A stretch of DNA of 64,000 bases from Denitrovibrio acetiphilus DSM 12809 (GTDB lineage: Bacteria > Chrysiogenota > Deferribacteres > Deferribacterales > Geovibrionaceae). The notes below the pieces were generated by a model that worked only from the letters and a program-made list of their open reading frames with translations, made no database searches and had not been told where the DNA came from. The position numbers and the translations under genes were made by a program. Location of the stretch: the NCBI RefSeq assembly GCF_000025725.1, contig NC_013943.1, positions 806,001 through 870,000 of the forward strand. The letters run 5' to 3'. This document shows positions 14,668 to 22,436 of the stretch, piece by piece (positions within the stretch are counted from its first letter, which is position 1; each line of letters starts with the position of its first letter).

Positions 14668-16563
14668 ATGGATGCAGTCTACTCAAATATCATGTGGGTA
14701 CTGGTGTGCAGTTTTCTTGTTGCTCTTATGCAGGCGGGCTTTGCTTGTCTTGAGACAGGTTTCGTACGTTCGAAAAACAACGTAAATGTTGCTGTTAAGA
14801 ACCTTGTGGACTTCTGCATAAGCGCATCACTTTTCACTCTCATCGGCTACGGGCTTATGTTCGGGGATTCGTTTTTCGGTATTGTTGGTGAATTCAGTTA
14901 TATCAGCATATCCAAAACATCAATCGAAGAGATAACATTTTACGTCTTTCAGCTTATGTTTGCGGGCACAGCAGCAACTATTATTTCCGGTGCTGTGGCA
15001 GAGCGAATGAAGTTTTCAGGCTATATTATTGTGACAATTTTCATGTCAGTGCTTATATACCCGATATGTGGGCACTGGGCTTGGGCTATTGACAGCAGCG
15101 GAAGCTTAACCGGCTGGCTGGGGAAATTCGGCTTCATGGATTTCGCCGGATCAACAGTGGTTCACAGCGTCGCCGGATGGTGTGCACTGGCAGCGGTTAT
15201 AATCATAGGGCCGAGGCTGGGGCGTTTTGGCAGAAATGGCAGAGCTATTGACGGTCAGAACCTGCCTATTGCCGTGTTGGGAGTTTTTCTGCTTTGGGTT
15301 GGGTTTTTCGGGTTTAATGGTGGGAGCACACTTGCCATCAATGACAATGTACCCATTATCATAGCGAACACCACTCTCGCAGGAGCTGCCGGAGGTATCT
15401 CTGCGATGTTTTTCAGCTGGTACAAATACGGCATGCCCAAAGTTGAGCATATCATAAACGGTGTTGTTGCGGGGCTTGTAGCAATATGCGCCGGTTGTAA
15501 TCTGTTTAACGAGCTTGCGGGGTTTGCTGTGGGCTTTGTTGCCGGTATCCTTTGTGTGATGGCAATGCTTTATCTTGAAAAGAGACTTATTGACGATGTA
15601 ATAGGAGCTGTTCCGGCTCATCTTGTAGCCGGGGTATGGGGAACGCTTTCTATTGCGCTTTTTGCTCCTGTTACGTCTTTTTCTGTCGCTTCCGGTCGGT
15701 TCGAGCAGTTCGGTATACAGCTTGTTGGGGTGGCAGCCATAGGTTTTTATTCGTTTAATGTAATGTACTTTGTCATCATGGGGCTGAAGAAGTGGGTCAA
15801 ATTCCGTGTTACAGAAGACGATGAGCGTATAGGTCTGAACATCTCTGAACACGGTTCATCAACAAGCTTGCTGGATCTTATAAGCCAGATGGATATGCAG
15901 GCACGCAGCGGTGATTTTTCAAAATACGTTGATATAGAGCCGGAGACAGAGGCGGGGCACATTGCTACATTTTATAACTCAGTCCTGGAAAAATTTCATA
16001 TTGAGTCTATGCGAAGGCAGACGGCGATGGATGAGCTGTATAAACTTGCCAACTATGATTCACTCACCAGCCTTATTAATCGAAGATACTTCTACGATAT
16101 TACAGAAAAAGCAATATACAGAACAAAACGAAACCGGAAGAAACTGGCTCTGCTGTTTCTGGATCTTGACGGGTTCAAACGTGTGAACGATACACTTGGG
16201 CATGAAGCGGGGGATGAGCTCCTTGTGCAGGTTGCGGAAAGAGGACTTGAAACTATAAGAGAGTCTGACGTTTTCGGACGGGTCGGCGGGGATGAATTCT
16301 GTATTGTTGTTGAGAATGTTGAGTCTGAAAGAGATATGGCAAACTTAGCGAGAAAGATAATAAAGAAAATCTCAGCGACATATTCTCTGAAAGCGGCTAA
16401 AGCTAATATCGGAGTTTCAATAGGCATTGCTGTATATGACGGATTTACCGGACAGGATATGACACCGGATGAGCTGGTGAAGAGAGCAGATAAAGCTATG
16501 TACACCATAAAAACCGGAGCGAAAGGGAGTTTCTCTTTCTATAGTGAAGAGAGCGGAACTTAG
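14668..16563 (+). CDS. Ammonium transporter fused to a diguanylate cyclase
   Basis: Residues 1 to about 400 are an Amt/Rh channel with about 11 membrane helices. The conserved pore features are visible: FAGTAATIISGAVAER, the first twin His in STVVHSVAG, WVGFFGFNGGST, and the second His in VPAHLVAGVWG. Residues about 415-455 form a helical linker, and residues about 460-630 are a GGDEF domain with intact GGDEF (540-544) and the inhibitory-site RxxD (RESD, 531-534) five residues before it. The protein should couple ammonium binding or passage to c-di-GMP synthesis. It is one frame with no frameshift. It is divergent from the lysA-like gene, with AGAGG upstream of the ATG. Confidence 0.92.
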   Translation: MDAVYSNIMWVLVCSFLVALMQAGFACLETGFVRSKNNVNVAVKNLVDFCISASLFTLIGYGLMFGDSFFGIVGEFSYISISKTSIEEITFYVFQLMFAGTAATIISGAVAERMKFSGYIIVTIFMSVLIYPICGHWAWAIDSSGSLTGWLGKFGFMDFAGSTVVHSVAGWCALAAVIIIGPRLGRFGRNGRAIDGQNLPIAVLGVFLLWVGFFGFNGGSTLAINDNVPIIIANTTLAGAAGGISAMFFSWYKYGMPKVEHIINGVVAGLVAICAGCNLFNELAGFAVGFVAGILCVMAMLYLEKRLIDDVIGAVPAHLVAGVWGTLSIALFAPVTSFSVASGRFEQFGIQLVGVAAIGFYSFNVMYFVIMGLKKWVKFRVTEDDERIGLNISEHGSSTSLLDLISQMDMQARSGDFSKYVDIEPETEAGHIATFYNSVLEKFHIESMRRQTAMDELYKLANYDSLTSLINRRYFYDITEKAIYRTKRNRKKLALLFLDLDGFKRVNDTLGHEAGDELLVQVAERGLETIRESDVFGRVGGDEFCIVVENVESERDMANLARKIIKKISATYSLKAAKANIGVSIGIAVYDGFTGQDMTPDELVKRADKAMYTIKTGAKGSFSFYSEESGT

Positions 16564-17158: not shown

Positions 17159-18553
17159 TTGAAGTATATAGTTGCAGCTACAACAAGCTCAGACGCTGTC
17201 AGTGCAGTAAAAAATTCATTTGATAAAAACTTTAATGTATTGTCCGTAAAGACATTGAGTGAATGTTTGTGCATGTTTACAGATAAGCGTCCGGAATTTA
17301 CTATGGTTGATATTTCACTTCTGAAAGACCCCGAAACAGGCGGCTATAAGAAAACTTTGAGGAAATTCTGGGACATATTCCCCGCTGCACATATAATAGT
17401 TCTCGCTGCTCAGAACGAAATCAGAGAAGCTGTCAGTGCTGTTAAGTGTGGTGCAACGAACTATATCACATATCCTGTAGACCCTGTTGAGCTTAAATAC
17501 ATCATTGAAAATACTTCTGAAACACAAATGATGGAGCATGAGCTTGGTTTCCTGCGTGAAAAGTTCTGGCGTGACGATGCGGAACGCATGGTGCGTACTA
17601 ACAGCAAGGCTATGCGTGATGTGTATGCTAAGGTTATGCGTGTAGCTGAAACTGATGCGACAATACTTATCACAGGCGAGACGGGCACAGGGAAGAGTCT
17701 GCTGGCAAAGATAATTCATTCTCACAGTAAAAGAAATGGCAATCAGTTTATAAGTGTGCACTGCGGTGCTATTCCTGATACGTTAATAGAGAGCGAACTT
17801 TTCGGACATGAGAAAGGTGCTTTTACCGGTGCTGTTAAGCGCAAACTGGGTCGGTTTGAAATAGCTTCCGGCGGAACGATATTTCTGGATGAAATAGGAA
17901 CTATCACTTCCCAAACACAGATAAAGCTTTTGCAGATACTTCAGGACGGAACGTTTAACCGTGTTGGAGGCGAAACAGTCATAAAGACTGATGCAAGAGT
18001 GATATCAGCCACAAACGAAGATTTAAAAGAACTCTGTAAATCCGGTGATTTCCGCAGTGACCTTTACTATCGTCTGAATGTCTTTCCTGTGGAAATTCCT
18101 GCTCTGCGGGAAAGAAAAGAGGATATACCGCTTCTTGTTGATACTTTTTTATCAACGCTTTCAGAGCGTTATGTCAGGGAGATTGATGGTCTTCACCCCC
18201 TTGTTGAGGAAGCGTTCATGGAATATGACTGGCCTGGAAATATCAGAGAGCTGGAAAATATCGTTGAACGTGCCTTTATCATCGAGCCTTCTGATGTGCT
18301 GACTCCTGCGAGCTTTCCTCAGGAACTTTTTGGCTACTGCAAAGTTGACCATGACGATATGATAGATATCTCCCGACCACTTGCTGATGTTCGTAAACAC
18401 AGCATAGAGAGGGTAGAGACAAAATATCTTCAGCAGCTTCTGGAAAAAACAGGTGGCAGTATAAAAGATACAGCGGCGGCGGCGGGGATGACAGTCCGGA
18501 ACCTGCATAATCTTATGACAAAATATGGTCTGCATAAAGAGACTTATAAATAA
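17159..18553 (+). CDS. Sigma-54-dependent activator with degenerate receiver domain
   Basis: TTG start with GAGGT upstream; 464 residues. Residues 1-120 have a receiver-like fold with Asp51 (MVDISLL), but the N-terminal acidic pair is missing (IVAATTS) and the conserved Lys-Pro is replaced (TYPVDP). The AAA+ domain follows: GETGTGKS Walker A, GAFTGA loop contacting sigma-54, and LDEIG Walker B. A Fis-type HTH lies at the C-terminus ([22 protein letters not shown]). It is an NtrC-family enhancer-binding protein, probably not controlled by ordinary phosphorylation. Sigma-54-like promoters on both sides of the gene (16684 and 18651) make the small secreted gene and the kamA operon its probable targets. 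Confidence 0.9.
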
Positions 18554-18577: not shown

Positions 18578-18607
18578 AAACCGGAATTAATAGTTCCGGT
18601 TTTTTTA
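18578..18607 (+). terminator. Intrinsic terminator of the activator gene
   Basis: AAACCGGAA (18578-18586) pairs with TTCCGGTTT (18594-18602) across a 7-nt loop and is followed by TTTT. Confidence 0.88.
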
Positions 18608-18650: not shown

Positions 18651-18667
18651 TTGGCACGTTTCTTGGT
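18651..18667 (+). promoter_or_regulatory. Sigma-54-like promoter of the kamA operon
   Basis: TTGGCACGTTTCTTGGT matches the consensus TGGCACG-N4-TTGCW except for GG instead of GC at -12. The GG-N10 spacing is exact. It lies downstream of the activator terminator and 35 bp before the leader ORF. Confidence 0.65.
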
Positions 18668-18701
18668 ATATAACATAAAAATGAAAACGTGAGGTTGTGA
18701 T

Positions 18702-18734
18702 ATGAACCGTATTTTCCTTAAGGCAGGTCTCTAG
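18702..18734 (+). CDS. Short leader ORF coupled to kamA
   Basis: ATG with GAGG 7 nt upstream encodes MNRIFLKAGL and stops at TAG, whose last base is the first base of the kamA GTG start. It may be a coupling leader that lets ribosomes re-initiate at the GTG. It contains one Lys and no run of regulatory codons, so classical attenuation is not indicated. It could also be fortuitous. Confidence 0.4.
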   Translation: MNRIFLKAGL

Positions 18735-19915
18735 TGAGCACAATAGCAGAAGTCCCCATAAGCTCCGGACAGATTAATGGAGCTACAGGAAGAACTGTTG
18801 TTAATGCAGATGATTTTCGTAAACGCTACTTCAAAGGCACTACTAAGAAGCAGTGGAACGACTGGCGCTGGCAGCTTGCTAATATTTTACGCAGCAGAGA
18901 AGATGTCGAGAAAATTGTTAAACTTTCCGAGAGCGAGGCTTGTGCTTTTGAGACATGCAGCGGGCTCCCGTTTGCTGTTACGCCTTACTATGCATCTCTC
19001 CTTACCGGTACATCTTCCTGTGATGCCGTGCGGAGAACTGTCATACCCACTCATATGGAGATGATAAAAGGCCGCGGTGAAGCGGATGACCCCCTTGGTG
19101 AAGACAGCTGTTCACCCGTGGATGGGCTCGTGCACAGATATCCGGACAGGGTACTGTTTCTGGTGACTGAACACTGCTCAACTTATTGCAGGTATTGTAC
19201 CAGATCAAGGAAGATGGGTGAAATTCACAGCGGAAACATTAAAGAACGCTGGCAGAAGGCAATAGACTATATAAAAGCAACCCCGCAGGTGCGTGATGTG
19301 CTCATCTCCGGAGGAGACCCGCTTGTCCTGCCGGATGCGTCGATAAAATGGCTGCTTGAGAGCCTGAGTGCTATTGAGCATGTTGAGATGATACGGATAG
19401 GAACTAAGGCTCCTGTTGTTCTTCCTCAGAGGATAACTAAAAGCCTTATAAAGATACTGAAAAGCGTTAGACCGCTGTTTATGAGCATACATTTCACTCA
19501 TCCGGACGAGCTCACAGCAGAGACTGTTCAGGCGTGTAATATGCTTGCAGATGCCGGTATTCCGCTTGGAAGCCAGACAGTGCTTCTGAAAGGGGTCAAC
19601 GACTCTGTAGATACACTGAAAGGGCTTTACCACGGGCTTCTTAAGGTTAGGGTGAGACCGTACTATCTTTATCAGTGTGACCCAATAAGCGGGTCGGGGC
19701 ATTTTCGCACGAAAGTGGAAACAGGCTTAAACATGATAAAGGGACTTCGTGGGCATACCACAGGGTACGCTATCCCTAACTATGTTATAGATGCCCCCGG
19801 CGGGGGTGGGAAAATACCTCTGATACCAGACTATTTTCAAGGTAAATCAGAGGGGCAGATAATGCTTAAGAACTATCAGGGGAACACCTATCTTTACCCT
19901 GACGAGGTGCTCTGA
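18734..19915 (+). CDS. kamA: Lysine 2,3-aminomutase family radical SAM enzyme
   Basis: GTG start; 393 residues, slightly shorter than clostridial KamA. The [4Fe-4S]/SAM motif CxxxCxxC is C148-C152-C155, with WNDWRWQ near residue 41 as in KamA proteins. The PLP lysine is K360 in PGGGGK. Asp290 (KGVND) and Asp316 (YQCDPISG) sit where clostridial KamA binds the side-chain amine of lysine, supporting L-lysine to L-beta-lysine conversion. EpmB, which serves EF-P, is a related alternative, but no epmA or efp is near. It is the first large gene of an operon with two ATP-grasp ligases and a GNAT acetyltransferase. Confidence 0.9.
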   Translation: MSTIAEVPISSGQINGATGRTVVNADDFRKRYFKGTTKKQWNDWRWQLANILRSREDVEKIVKLSESEACAFETCSGLPFAVTPYYASLLTGTSSCDAVRRTVIPTHMEMIKGRGEADDPLGEDSCSPVDGLVHRYPDRVLFLVTEHCSTYCRYCTRSRKMGEIHSGNIKERWQKAIDYIKATPQVRDVLISGGDPLVLPDASIKWLLESLSAIEHVEMIRIGTKAPVVLPQRITKSLIKILKSVRPLFMSIHFTHPDELTAETVQACNMLADAGIPLGSQTVLLKGVNDSVDTLKGLYHGLLKVRVRPYYLYQCDPISGSGHFRTKVETGLNMIKGLRGHTTGYAIPNYVIDAPGGGGKIPLIPDYFQGKSEGQIMLKNYQGNTYLYPDEVL

Positions 19916-19916
19916 A

Positions 19917-20927
19917 ATGGAGATGCCTATGAATATTGGTCTCGTTTATGACCTCCGCAGCGACTACCTTAAAATGGGATTCAGTGAGGAGGATACAGCA
20001 GAGTTTGACAGTGAGGAAACGATATCAGCTATAGAGACAGCTCTCTGCGAATGCGGGCACAGTGTTGAGCGTATAGGGAACTATTTTGCTCTTCATAAGA
20101 AGCTCGCAGCGCAGAAGAGCTGGGATCTTGTGTTTAACATTGCAGAGGGGCTTTACGGCATGGGGCGGGAGTCTCTCGTACCATGTGTTCTGGATGCTTA
20201 CGGTATCAACTATACCTTTTCGGATCCGCTTGCGATCAGCCTTACCCTGCATAAGGGGATGGCAAAGCATATCCTGAAAGGGTGCGGGGTTGCCACTGCT
20301 GACTTCGCTGTGGTTAATAATCTAGGCGATATCGATAGTATAAACCTTGGTTTTCCGTTGTTTGCAAAGCCCGCAGCGGAAGGCACAGGCAAAGGGATTA
20401 GCGACAGGTCGATAGTCTGGAACAGCGCAGACCTGAAAAGAGTTTGTACTGAGCTTCTTGTAAGATACAGTCAGCCTGTGCTTGTTGAAAAACTGCTCGA
20501 AGGACGTGAGTTTACAGTGGGGATAATAGGATCCGGCAGTGAAGCTGTGAGCGTTGGTGTTATGGAAATATTGCCGAGAAACAAAGAAGGAATATTCGTT
20601 TATTCCTATGAGAACAAAGAGAATTGTGAATCTCTTCTGGACTATAGTCTTGTTTACGGTGATACAGCAGACAGGTGTGCAGATGTTGCCCTTAGAGCAT
20701 ACAGAGCACTGGGGTGCAGAGACGCAGGGCGTGTTGACGTCAGGCTTGACGGTGACGGAATAGCAAATGTTATAGAGCTTAACCCTCTGCCGGGGCTGCA
20801 TCCGACACATTCAGATTTGCCTATGATATGGACTAAGGCCGGCATGTCCTACAGACAGCTAATATGCAGCATTGCAGCAAAGGCGAAGGCCAGAGTTGAG
20901 CATATACAGGAGAGTAAAGCGATATGA
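19917..20927 (+). CDS. ATP-grasp ligase of the D-Ala-D-Ala ligase family (first copy)
   Basis: The 336-residue product begins 1 nt after kamA; an ATG four codons in (19929), with GGAG 6 nt upstream, is an equally good start. The N-terminal half is Ddl-like (NIGLVYDLRS, DLVFNIAEG). The ATP-grasp fold follows with LFAKPAAEGTGKGIS (ATP-binding loop), VLVEKLLEGREFTVGI, RVDVRLDG and the Mg-binding NVIELNPLPGLHPTHSDLP. The family joins a carboxylate to an amine through an acylphosphate. A normal Ddl role is less likely because two divergent copies sit in a kamA operon. Beta-lysine or lysine is a plausible substrate. Confidence 0.88.
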   Translation: MEMPMNIGLVYDLRSDYLKMGFSEEDTAEFDSEETISAIETALCECGHSVERIGNYFALHKKLAAQKSWDLVFNIAEGLYGMGRESLVPCVLDAYGINYTFSDPLAISLTLHKGMAKHILKGCGVATADFAVVNNLGDIDSINLGFPLFAKPAAEGTGKGISDRSIVWNSADLKRVCTELLVRYSQPVLVEKLLEGREFTVGIIGSGSEAVSVGVMEILPRNKEGIFVYSYENKENCESLLDYSLVYGDTADRCADVALRAYRALGCRDAGRVDVRLDGDGIANVIELNPLPGLHPTHSDLPMIWTKAGMSYRQLICSIAAKAKARVEHIQESKAI

Positions 20928-21913
20928 AAATAGAGAATATGAAAGTACATATAGCTCATACAGATGTTGATATGAACAGTAGTTCAGCCGACAAGGAGGT
21001 GCTTGATCAGGCTGAAGAAATTAAAAGTGCTCTGATATCGCTTGGTGCAAAGCCATACGTTACAGGTTATAAAAATGCCCTTAAAAAATTATCTGCACAT
21101 AAAGACAGACCCGATGCGGTTTTTAACCTTGTTGAATCTGTAAATGGTACAGACAGGGATATGTACAGGGCTGCTATGTTCTTTCATAACAGCTATTACC
21201 CCTATACTGGTTCACCTTATAAAAGTCTTCAGGTTTTGAGCGATAAAGTTGTAATGAAAAGAGTTATGGCAGATTGTGATATCCTGACGCCTATGTGGCA
21301 TAAGTATAATGAACCTGATACTTTTTTCCATAAAGGAGAGTATATAGTAAAGCCGCTTTATGAACATGGATCGTTCAAAATAAGCGGTGAAAGCATTGTG
21401 TCGATGATTGATGTTGACGATGCAGACAGCAAGGTAGCTGGTATGCATCCTGACAATCCGGAAATATTTTTTGCTGAAAGATACATAGACGGTAGAGAAT
21501 TTAACATTTCAGTCATTGAAGTTAAAGGTGAACCCGTTCTGCTCCCCCTTGCAGAAATAGTTTTTGAGGGCTATGATGGCAAAAGAAAGATAGTCTGCGA
21601 AAAAGCAAAATGGGATGAAAATTCGGAAGAAGCATCCGGCACTGTACGTACATTTGGCACTGTAAGCAAAGGGAGCAGACTGGAAGAGAAGATCGAGAAG
21701 ATAACACTGAAATGCTGGGATAAATTTAATTTATCTGGTTATGCCAGAGTAGACATAAGGGTTGATGCGCTTGGAGAGCCTTATGTGCTTGAAGTAAATG
21801 CCAACCCTACCTTAGCAAAAGATGCAGGTTTTTTTGCTGCCTGTACTGAAGCAGGGTACAGCCATAACCAAATGATAGAATTGATTATCCTTGCGGCAAT
21901 GAGGCGAAAATAA
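20924..21913 (+). CDS. ATP-grasp ligase (second copy)
   Basis: It overlaps the first ligase gene by ATGA. The 329-residue product has the same architecture (DAVFNLVESVNGTDRD, YIVKPLYEHGSFKIS, FFAERYIDGREFNISVI, RVDIRVDALGEP, VLEVNANPTLAKDAGF). The final ATP-grasp motif reads EVNANPT, where the first copy has ELNPLPG, and the loop before Mg binding differs, so the two copies are probably specialised for different substrates and not redundant. It begins with a short MKIENMKVHIAHTD stretch in place of the usual Ddl N-terminus. Confidence 0.87.
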   Translation: MKIENMKVHIAHTDVDMNSSSADKEVLDQAEEIKSALISLGAKPYVTGYKNALKKLSAHKDRPDAVFNLVESVNGTDRDMYRAAMFFHNSYYPYTGSPYKSLQVLSDKVVMKRVMADCDILTPMWHKYNEPDTFFHKGEYIVKPLYEHGSFKISGESIVSMIDVDDADSKVAGMHPDNPEIFFAERYIDGREFNISVIEVKGEPVLLPLAEIVFEGYDGKRKIVCEKAKWDENSEEASGTVRTFGTVSKGSRLEEKIEKITLKCWDKFNLSGYARVDIRVDALGEPYVLEVNANPTLAKDAGFFAACTEAGYSHNQMIELIILAAMRRK

Positions 21914-22407
21914 TGACTGAGAACAATGTCCCGGTTTTTAAACACGGGATAACTGAAGAGGATCTTGTTGATGTCTACGAAATAGCTGGCAGTAGCGGTT
22001 TCTTCAGCAAAGACGAGACGATGCTAGTGGATGAGGTTGCCAGAGAGGCAATCCAGAAAGGTGAACTAATGAGCGGGTATTCATTTATCTTTTGCACTAT
22101 CGACGGGCGAAAGGCTGGATTCGCTTGTTACGGTCTCATACCCTGTACTGACGAAAGATACAGGATATACTGGCTGGCAGTAGATAACAGATTGAGGAGA
22201 GGCGGCGTCGGAACTTCTCTTATTAAAGAAGTTGAAAAAACGATAGTTTCAAAAGGTGGTAAGAGAGTTTATCTGGAAACCTCTATGCGCCCTCAATATC
22301 AGCCCACTAACGATTTCTACAGGAAGTGTGGATATATAGCCGAAGCAAAGCTGGAAAACTTTTACTTTGACGGCGACGGTATGGTTGTTTACGTTAAAAT
22401 ACTTTAA
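21913..22407 (+). CDS. GNAT-family N-acetyltransferase
   Basis: The start overlaps the stop of the second ligase by one base (TAATG). The 164-residue product has the GNAT core: strand YRIYWLAVDN, then the acetyl-CoA pyrophosphate loop RLRRGGVGTSLIKEVEKT (R/Q-x-x-G-x-G/A type), and the C-terminal YLETSMRPQYQPTNDFYRKCGY. It is too short to be a standard AblB beta-lysine acetyltransferase (about 270 residues). As the last gene it may acetylate the amine of the ligated beta-lysine product. Confidence 0.88.
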   Translation: MTENNVPVFKHGITEEDLVDVYEIAGSSGFFSKDETMLVDEVAREAIQKGELMSGYSFIFCTIDGRKAGFACYGLIPCTDERYRIYWLAVDNRLRRGGVGTSLIKEVEKTIVSKGGKRVYLETSMRPQYQPTNDFYRKCGYIAEAKLENFYFDGDGMVVYVKIL

Positions 22408-22412
22408 AATGT

Positions 22413-22436
22413 GGGCCGCTGAAAAGCGGTCCGTTT
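22413..22436. terminator. Terminator between the kamA operon and the ABC operon
   Basis: GGGCCGCT-GAAA-AGCGGTCC is an 8-bp stem (one G-U pair) with a GAAA loop, followed by GTTTAC. The convergent ABC operon ends at its right side. Confidence 0.75.

Follow-up and report, generated by a model that had tools for sequence, protein, structure and literature searches.

What might a bacterium make with a lysine 2,3-aminomutase-type enzyme, two ligases of the D-alanine-D-alanine ligase (Ddl) fold and a GNAT acetyltransferase encoded side by side? We have analyzed such a locus in Denitrovibrio acetiphilus DSM 12809, within a 64,000 nucleotide stretch of contig NC_013943.1 (positions 806,001 to 870,000), here called the window and numbered from its first letter. 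Four intact, tightly coupled ORFs occupy positions 18734-22407 of the + strand. The first, KamA (18734..19915, +; GTG start, 393 aa), is a radical S-adenosylmethionine (SAM), pyridoxal phosphate (PLP)-dependent protein of the lysine 2,3-aminomutase (LAM) type that lacks the C-terminal Zn domain and belongs to an unnamed subfamily. It is followed by LigA (19917..20927, +; 336 aa) and LigB (20924..21913, +; 329 aa), a Ddl-fold ATP-grasp ligase and a second, divergent one, neither of which is a Ddl, and by a GNAT N-acetyltransferase (21913..22407, +; 164 aa), a relative of PDB entry 2R7H that is not AblB. An earlier note on this DNA, made from the sequence alone, had described a four-gene operon with gaps of 1, -4 and -1 nt; the operon is confirmed, and the ORF coordinates match exactly (+1 between KamA and LigA, -4 between LigA and LigB, -1 between LigB and GNAT). 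The interval 18651-22436 given in that note is slightly longer than the operon and includes the promoter region at one end and, at the other, the space before a convergent ABC-transporter gene. No Rfam elements were found in the window.

We consider it reasonably probable, from sequence comparisons, that the operon encodes a pathway independent of nonribosomal peptide synthetases (NRPS), leading to a small N-acetylated pseudopeptide that is based on beta-lysine and remains inside the cell. As predicted from homology and conserved residues, KamA would convert L-lysine to beta-lysine. LigA and LigB would each drive the formation of an acyl phosphate on a carboxylate with ATP and then make one amide bond, joining beta-lysine to one or two building blocks, and GNAT would acetylate a remaining amine. 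Both the product and its physiological role are what we infer from the genes.

Conservation and distribution

With a LigA alignment as query, at least 509 LigA relatives were confirmed in contigs representing one genome per species, and the locus analyses were carried out on the best 80 of these. These 80 come from Desulfobacterota and relatives, Bacteroidota, Spirochaetota, Planctomycetota, Acidobacteriota and Ignavibacteriota, and further from Fibrobacterota, Nitrospirota, Krumholzibacteria, Neomarinimicrobiota and Pseudomonadota. Purpose-built hidden Markov models (HMMs) found all four families in 47 of the 53 loci whose flanks are long enough on either side, and KamA in 67 of the 70 loci with enough upstream sequence. 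KamA, two non-Ddl ligases and a non-AblB GNAT are thus conserved as a unit, and the neighbourhood that the earlier note had drawn from one locus is kept together across at least ten phyla. Domain-to-domain distances in the clusters are typically 25-47 bases. The 67 loci include L027 (3788-5942) and L038 (3785-5939), where an N-terminal KamA-like segment of ~120 residues, with no radical SAM part, precedes a GNAT-deacetylase gene of the kind described below; a full KamA may lie elsewhere in these genomes or may have been lost.

Within the phylum of the host, LigA and LigB are adjacent in 4 of 51 genomes scanned, all from one other family of the same order; KamA, GNAT or both accompany them wherever the contig extends far enough. 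Identities are 30-50% (LigA 46-48%, LigB ~30%). The closest relatives of the host among these 51 genomes lack the operon, and its distribution is therefore patchy. Among the Desulfobacterota, 69 of 198 genomes have a LigA relative at E < 1e-40. The record titles of the scan include many metagenome-assembled genomes (MAGs) from freshwater lakes, fens, wetlands, groundwater and bioreactors, as read from the titles and uncounted. Beyond the operon itself and an occasional activator, no flanking family or transporter is conserved, which fits an intracellular product. LigA had no match among the plasmids of PLSDB, and a role in anti-phage defence was discarded after PADLOC returned no hit. A literature search, with most subscription papers outside its reach, found no description of the cluster, and no family model describing it was found either.

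The aminomutase

KamA aligns end to end with the lysine 2,3-aminomutase 2A5H (361 residues, E = 2e-125). The CxxxCxxC cysteines and the equivalents of R134, D293, D330 and K337 are present, as the earlier note had observed for the cysteines, the PLP lysine and the substrate Asp, and they are invariant in all 75 type-I operon KamAs compared. From established knowledge of LAM we take the cysteines to hold the 4Fe-4S cluster, R134 to bind the carboxylate, D293 and D330 the distal amine, and K337 to bind PLP. The LAM_C match of KamA spans only model positions 1-56 of 127, and a Ser stands at the position of C268, the Zn ligand in the clostridial LAM; together these indicate that the C-terminal Zn domain is missing.

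Family membership was judged by NCBIfam equivalog cut-offs. KamA scores below those for AblA (TIGR03820; 458.3 vs 525.4 bits), EpmB (TIGR03821; 242.5 vs 369.3), glutamate 2,3-aminomutase (414.6 vs 650) and arginine 2,3-aminomutase (368.2 vs 600), while the other KamA of this genome reaches 743 against the AblA model. By these scores KamA is placed outside every named aminomutase equivalog. In other clusters, KamA lineages nearer to authentic LAM fill the same slot, according to a quick tree with long branches that serves as supporting evidence only.

The acetyltransferase and the canonical ablAB pair

The GNAT of the window has no match to the AblB model (TIGR03827) and no BLAST similarity to the AblB of the same genome, and at 164 aa vs 270 aa it is, as had been remarked earlier, about 100 residues shorter. 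Its closest solved relative is 2R7H (105 bits), named 'putative D-alanine N-acetyltransferase'. The earlier statement that AblB is absent holds for the operon but not for the organism: a canonical ablA-ablB pair lies on the - strand ~80 kb away, at about 906,702-908,823 of the contig (L096:6703-8824), with both proteins over the NCBIfam cut-offs (AblA 743 vs 525, AblB 296 vs 205 bits). Among 50 other genomes that carry the operon, a single one has an AblB above the cut-off. We therefore reject the reading of the operon as a defective or alternative N-epsilon-acetyl-beta-lysine pathway.

The two ligases

LigA (154.6 bits) and LigB (78.5 bits) fall far below the Ddl subfamily cut-off of 243, and the genome encodes a separate, true Ddl scoring 351, so that neither is a D-Ala-D-Ala ligase. 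This HMM comparison bears out the earlier view of two distinct ligases. AlphaFold models of both are confident (mean pLDDT 93.5 for LigA and 95.1 for LigB), and their best PDB matches are all Ddl-type ligases. The Mg-binding Asp-Glu-Asn set (D274/E287/N289 in LigA, D277/E290/N292 in LigB) is invariant among the sequences compared, and the ATP/Mg residues and the active-site Arg and Lys of Ddl are kept in both. The active-site His of Ddl (His63) is replaced by Glu in both (E77 in LigA, E71 in LigB), and the Tyr216 position is altered. In Ddl a Lys and a Ser hold the acceptor carboxylate; LigA has retained the Lys and, in most cases, the Ser. Such a residue pattern fits enzymes that work as Ddl does, by way of an acyl phosphate to an amide, on different substrates.

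Clusters with an arginine decarboxylase

Second-tier LigA loci in Desulfobacterota were scanned for their first enzyme, with families set by curated cut-offs. Other KamA subfamilies occur in L104-L107, L118, L119 and L121. Seven loci (L108, L110, L111, L112, L120, L122 and L123) contain LigA and LigB, mostly with GNAT, and no KamA. In all seven a pyruvoyl-dependent arginine decarboxylase (PvlArgDC) lies directly upstream on the same strand, and none of the 93 other loci scanned has this enzyme; five of the seven also carry an agmatinase, and five a deoxyhypusine-synthase-family protein. These clusters look like a sister system linked to polyamines. At one of them a third ATP-grasp protein, RimK-like by a weak Pfam hit, lies between the decarboxylase and LigA (L108:3634-4560). 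The exchange of KamA for PvlArgDC indicates that the ligase pair serves either beta-lysine or an arginine-derived amine, and suggests that the ligase-GNAT module acts on whichever basic amine its first enzyme supplies, beta-lysine here and an arginine-derived amine there.

The LigA pocket residues vary with the partner enzyme. Type-I KamA clusters have Glu or Ala immediately after K234, L104-L107 have Arg, and both the arginine-decarboxylase set and L119 and L121 have Trp; positions 300-301 are Asp-Leu or Cys-Phe. The second ligase type is paired with KamA in L119 and L121, so that the correlation tracks the lineage of the ligase in addition to its partner.

An accessory protein and gene fusions

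Of the 80 loci (L016-L095), 23 encode an extra protein, among them 17 of the 53 with enough flank; L061:8013-9761 is an example. Its N-terminal part is GNAT-like and is joined to a C-terminal PF00850 domain (249-258 bits), for which acetylpolyamine amidohydrolases are the closest solved structures (235 bits). The position of the gene varies: it can stand between LigB and GNAT, follow GNAT or precede LigA, and in some clusters it forms a fusion with GNAT. LigB-GNAT fusions occur in L054, L058, L064 and L088. Fusions of this kind are independent evidence that the fused steps belong together. In about a third of complete clusters the accessory protein could add or remove an acyl group. An AblB-like origin of its N-terminal GNAT domain had no BLAST support. 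The genome of D. acetiphilus encodes no histone-deacetylase-family protein.

Regulation

A sigma-54-dependent activator (enhancer-binding protein, EBP) is encoded upstream of the operon (17159..18553, +). It matches Sigma54_activat at 228 bits, and its Response_reg match is below the gathering score; the receiver is atypical, keeping the aspartate and having Tyr-Pro in place of the usual Lys-Pro ('NYITYP' instead of '..KP'). Five other loci (L036, L037, L040, L078 and L094) carry a related EBP beside the operon, again marked by the TYP signature. These five resemble the window EBP at 60-66% in the AAA domain, 31-46% in the N-terminus and 38-49% in a similar helix-turn-helix region, and unrelated EBPs nearby are without these features. 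The EBP is likely a dedicated regulator of the operon.

The EBP gene is separated from the operon by an intrinsic terminator (18578..18602, +; 11-pair stem and T-run, by consensus match only). Beyond it lies a sigma-54 -24/-12-like sequence, TGGCACGTTTCTTGGT (18652..18667, +), with one deviation, GC to GG at -12. A search with TGGCACN5TTGSW gave this single match in the window, where 0.23 were expected and 21 of 100 shuffles had at least one. Of 67 loci, 13% have a strong box ahead of KamA, vs 0.45% of mononucleotide shuffles; L078 has the activator and no good box. As the deviation affects the normally strict -12 GC, the promoter at 18652-18667 is likely, not certain. In this genome the adjacent activator probably switches the operon on from it. 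A candidate 10-codon leader ORF (MNRIFLKAGL; 18702..18734, +) has a good ribosome-binding site, and its TAG overlaps the GTG of kamA by one base; a leader peptide or translational coupling is possible. Farther upstream in the window, positions 14668-16563 encode an ammonium transporter fused to a GGDEF diguanylate cyclase domain.

Possible products and roles

Several observations weigh against the beta-lysine pseudopeptide pathway. The clusters with arginine decarboxylase show that the module has no strict need for beta-lysine, D293 and D330 of KamA would also suit another basic amino acid, and one of the ligases could act on something unrelated to beta-lysine. A few clusters also do without LigB or GNAT (L035, L036, L068, L046 and L070). 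The interpretation of the earlier note, a beta-lysine-containing amide or short peptide, perhaps acetylated, is partly supported. It recognized the aminomutase, the ligases and the GNAT, and did not include the neighbouring sigma-54 activator, the acetylpolyamine-amidohydrolase accessory or the clusters in which arginine decarboxylase takes the place of KamA.

The roles weighed below overlap in confidence with the pathway, which concerns chemistry and not role. Perhaps the best of them, possible if still on the unlikely side, is a polyamine-like conjugate, in which beta-lysine would replace a diamine, the ligases would make peptide-amine conjugates, by a logic comparable to that of glutathionylspermidine, and reversible acetylation would set their charge, in the service of stress protection or signalling. 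It draws on the replacement of KamA by PvlArgDC, which in most cases is accompanied by agmatinase and a deoxyhypusine-synthase-like protein, and on the acetylpolyamine-amidohydrolase type of the accessory protein. In E-64 biosynthesis, moreover, an ATP-grasp enzyme works beside polyamine coupling, the amine being attached by a separate synthetase (PMC12568646). However, the acceptor-carboxylate residues kept in LigA suggest an amino acid rather than a plain amine as acceptor, and in both sequence and fold the best matches of the ligases are to Ddl rather than to glutathionylspermidine synthetase.

Rather less probable is a compatible solute, an example offered in the earlier note. The product would then be a zwitterionic N-acetyl-beta-lysyl peptide that the cell builds up to withstand salt stress, as with N-acetylglutaminylglutamine amide (NAGGN) or N-epsilon-acetyl-beta-lysine. 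Acetylated beta-lysine is already known as an osmolyte, no exporter is conserved, and the combination of GNAT and ATP-grasp follows the logic of N-acetylglutaminylglutamine synthetase. Support for this role is nevertheless weak, since the host already has canonical ablAB and many relatives come from the freshwater, wetland, groundwater and bioreactor MAGs mentioned above; an activator with a degenerate receiver is atypical of osmotic control, and none of the four proteins matches the NAGGN synthetase model.

A secreted siderophore, metallophore or antibiotic appears improbable. Beta-lysine is generally known from secreted peptides such as streptothricin and viomycin, but the flanks hold no conserved transporter, receptor, NRPS or resistance gene and the molecule would be very small; the metallophore suggested earlier is thus disfavoured. 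Finally, that KamA serves beta-lysylation of EF-P among incidental neighbours can be dismissed: EpmB is among its homologues, but KamA is far under the EpmB cut-off, no protein of the genome passes the EpmA cut-off (the best match is a 489-residue frame of LysRS size), and the neighbours are conserved over many phyla.

Returning to the pathway itself, the ligase-GNAT module may be a general maker of basic-amine amide conjugates, working with KamA or with arginine decarboxylase. More tentatively than for the single operon, we propose a widespread NRPS-free family in which a Ddl-like ligase pair and a GNAT would build acetylated conjugates on an interchangeable basic block, supplied by KamA or PvlArgDC, as a new class of intracellular metabolites in hundreds of species of mostly uncultured anaerobes. 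The cluster itself is present in hundreds of species, many of them sulfate reducers or Bacteroidales from anoxic habitats. A beta-lysine pseudopeptide, if correct, would put beta-lysine to a new use alongside its roles in the N-epsilon-acetyl-beta-lysine osmolyte, in EF-P modification and in antibiotics, and would bring two new amide-forming ATP-grasp enzymes. The replacement of KamA by arginine decarboxylase offers a concrete handle on ligase specificity.

Comparison with known systems

The operon resembles AblA/AblB in uniting a KamA-family aminomutase that has the lysine-binding residues with a GNAT. It differs in that this KamA is under the AblA cut-off and without the Zn-binding C-terminus, the GNAT is unrelated to AblB by BLAST, and two ligases are added. 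With Ddl, LigA and LigB share the fold (TM 0.74-0.77) and the ATP/Mg residues; they differ in scoring below all cut-offs, in the Glu at the His63 position and in the changed Tyr216 position. In the NAGGN pathway, ATP-grasp amide formation and GNAT acetylation yield a small intracellular dipeptide. The outline is alike, but where the operon has KamA the NAGGN pathway has an asparagine-synthetase-like enzyme, and TIGR03103 (NAGGN synthetase) was matched by none of the four operon proteins (for LigA, among the best 25 matches). The biosynthesis of E-64 likewise proceeds by NRPS-free, stepwise amide formation with an ATP-grasp enzyme toward an amine-capped product (PMC12568646). That system is fungal, its ATP-grasp enzyme Cp1B has no detectable identity to other characterised ATP-grasp enzymes, and its second bond is made by an ANL-family synthetase (PMC12568646).

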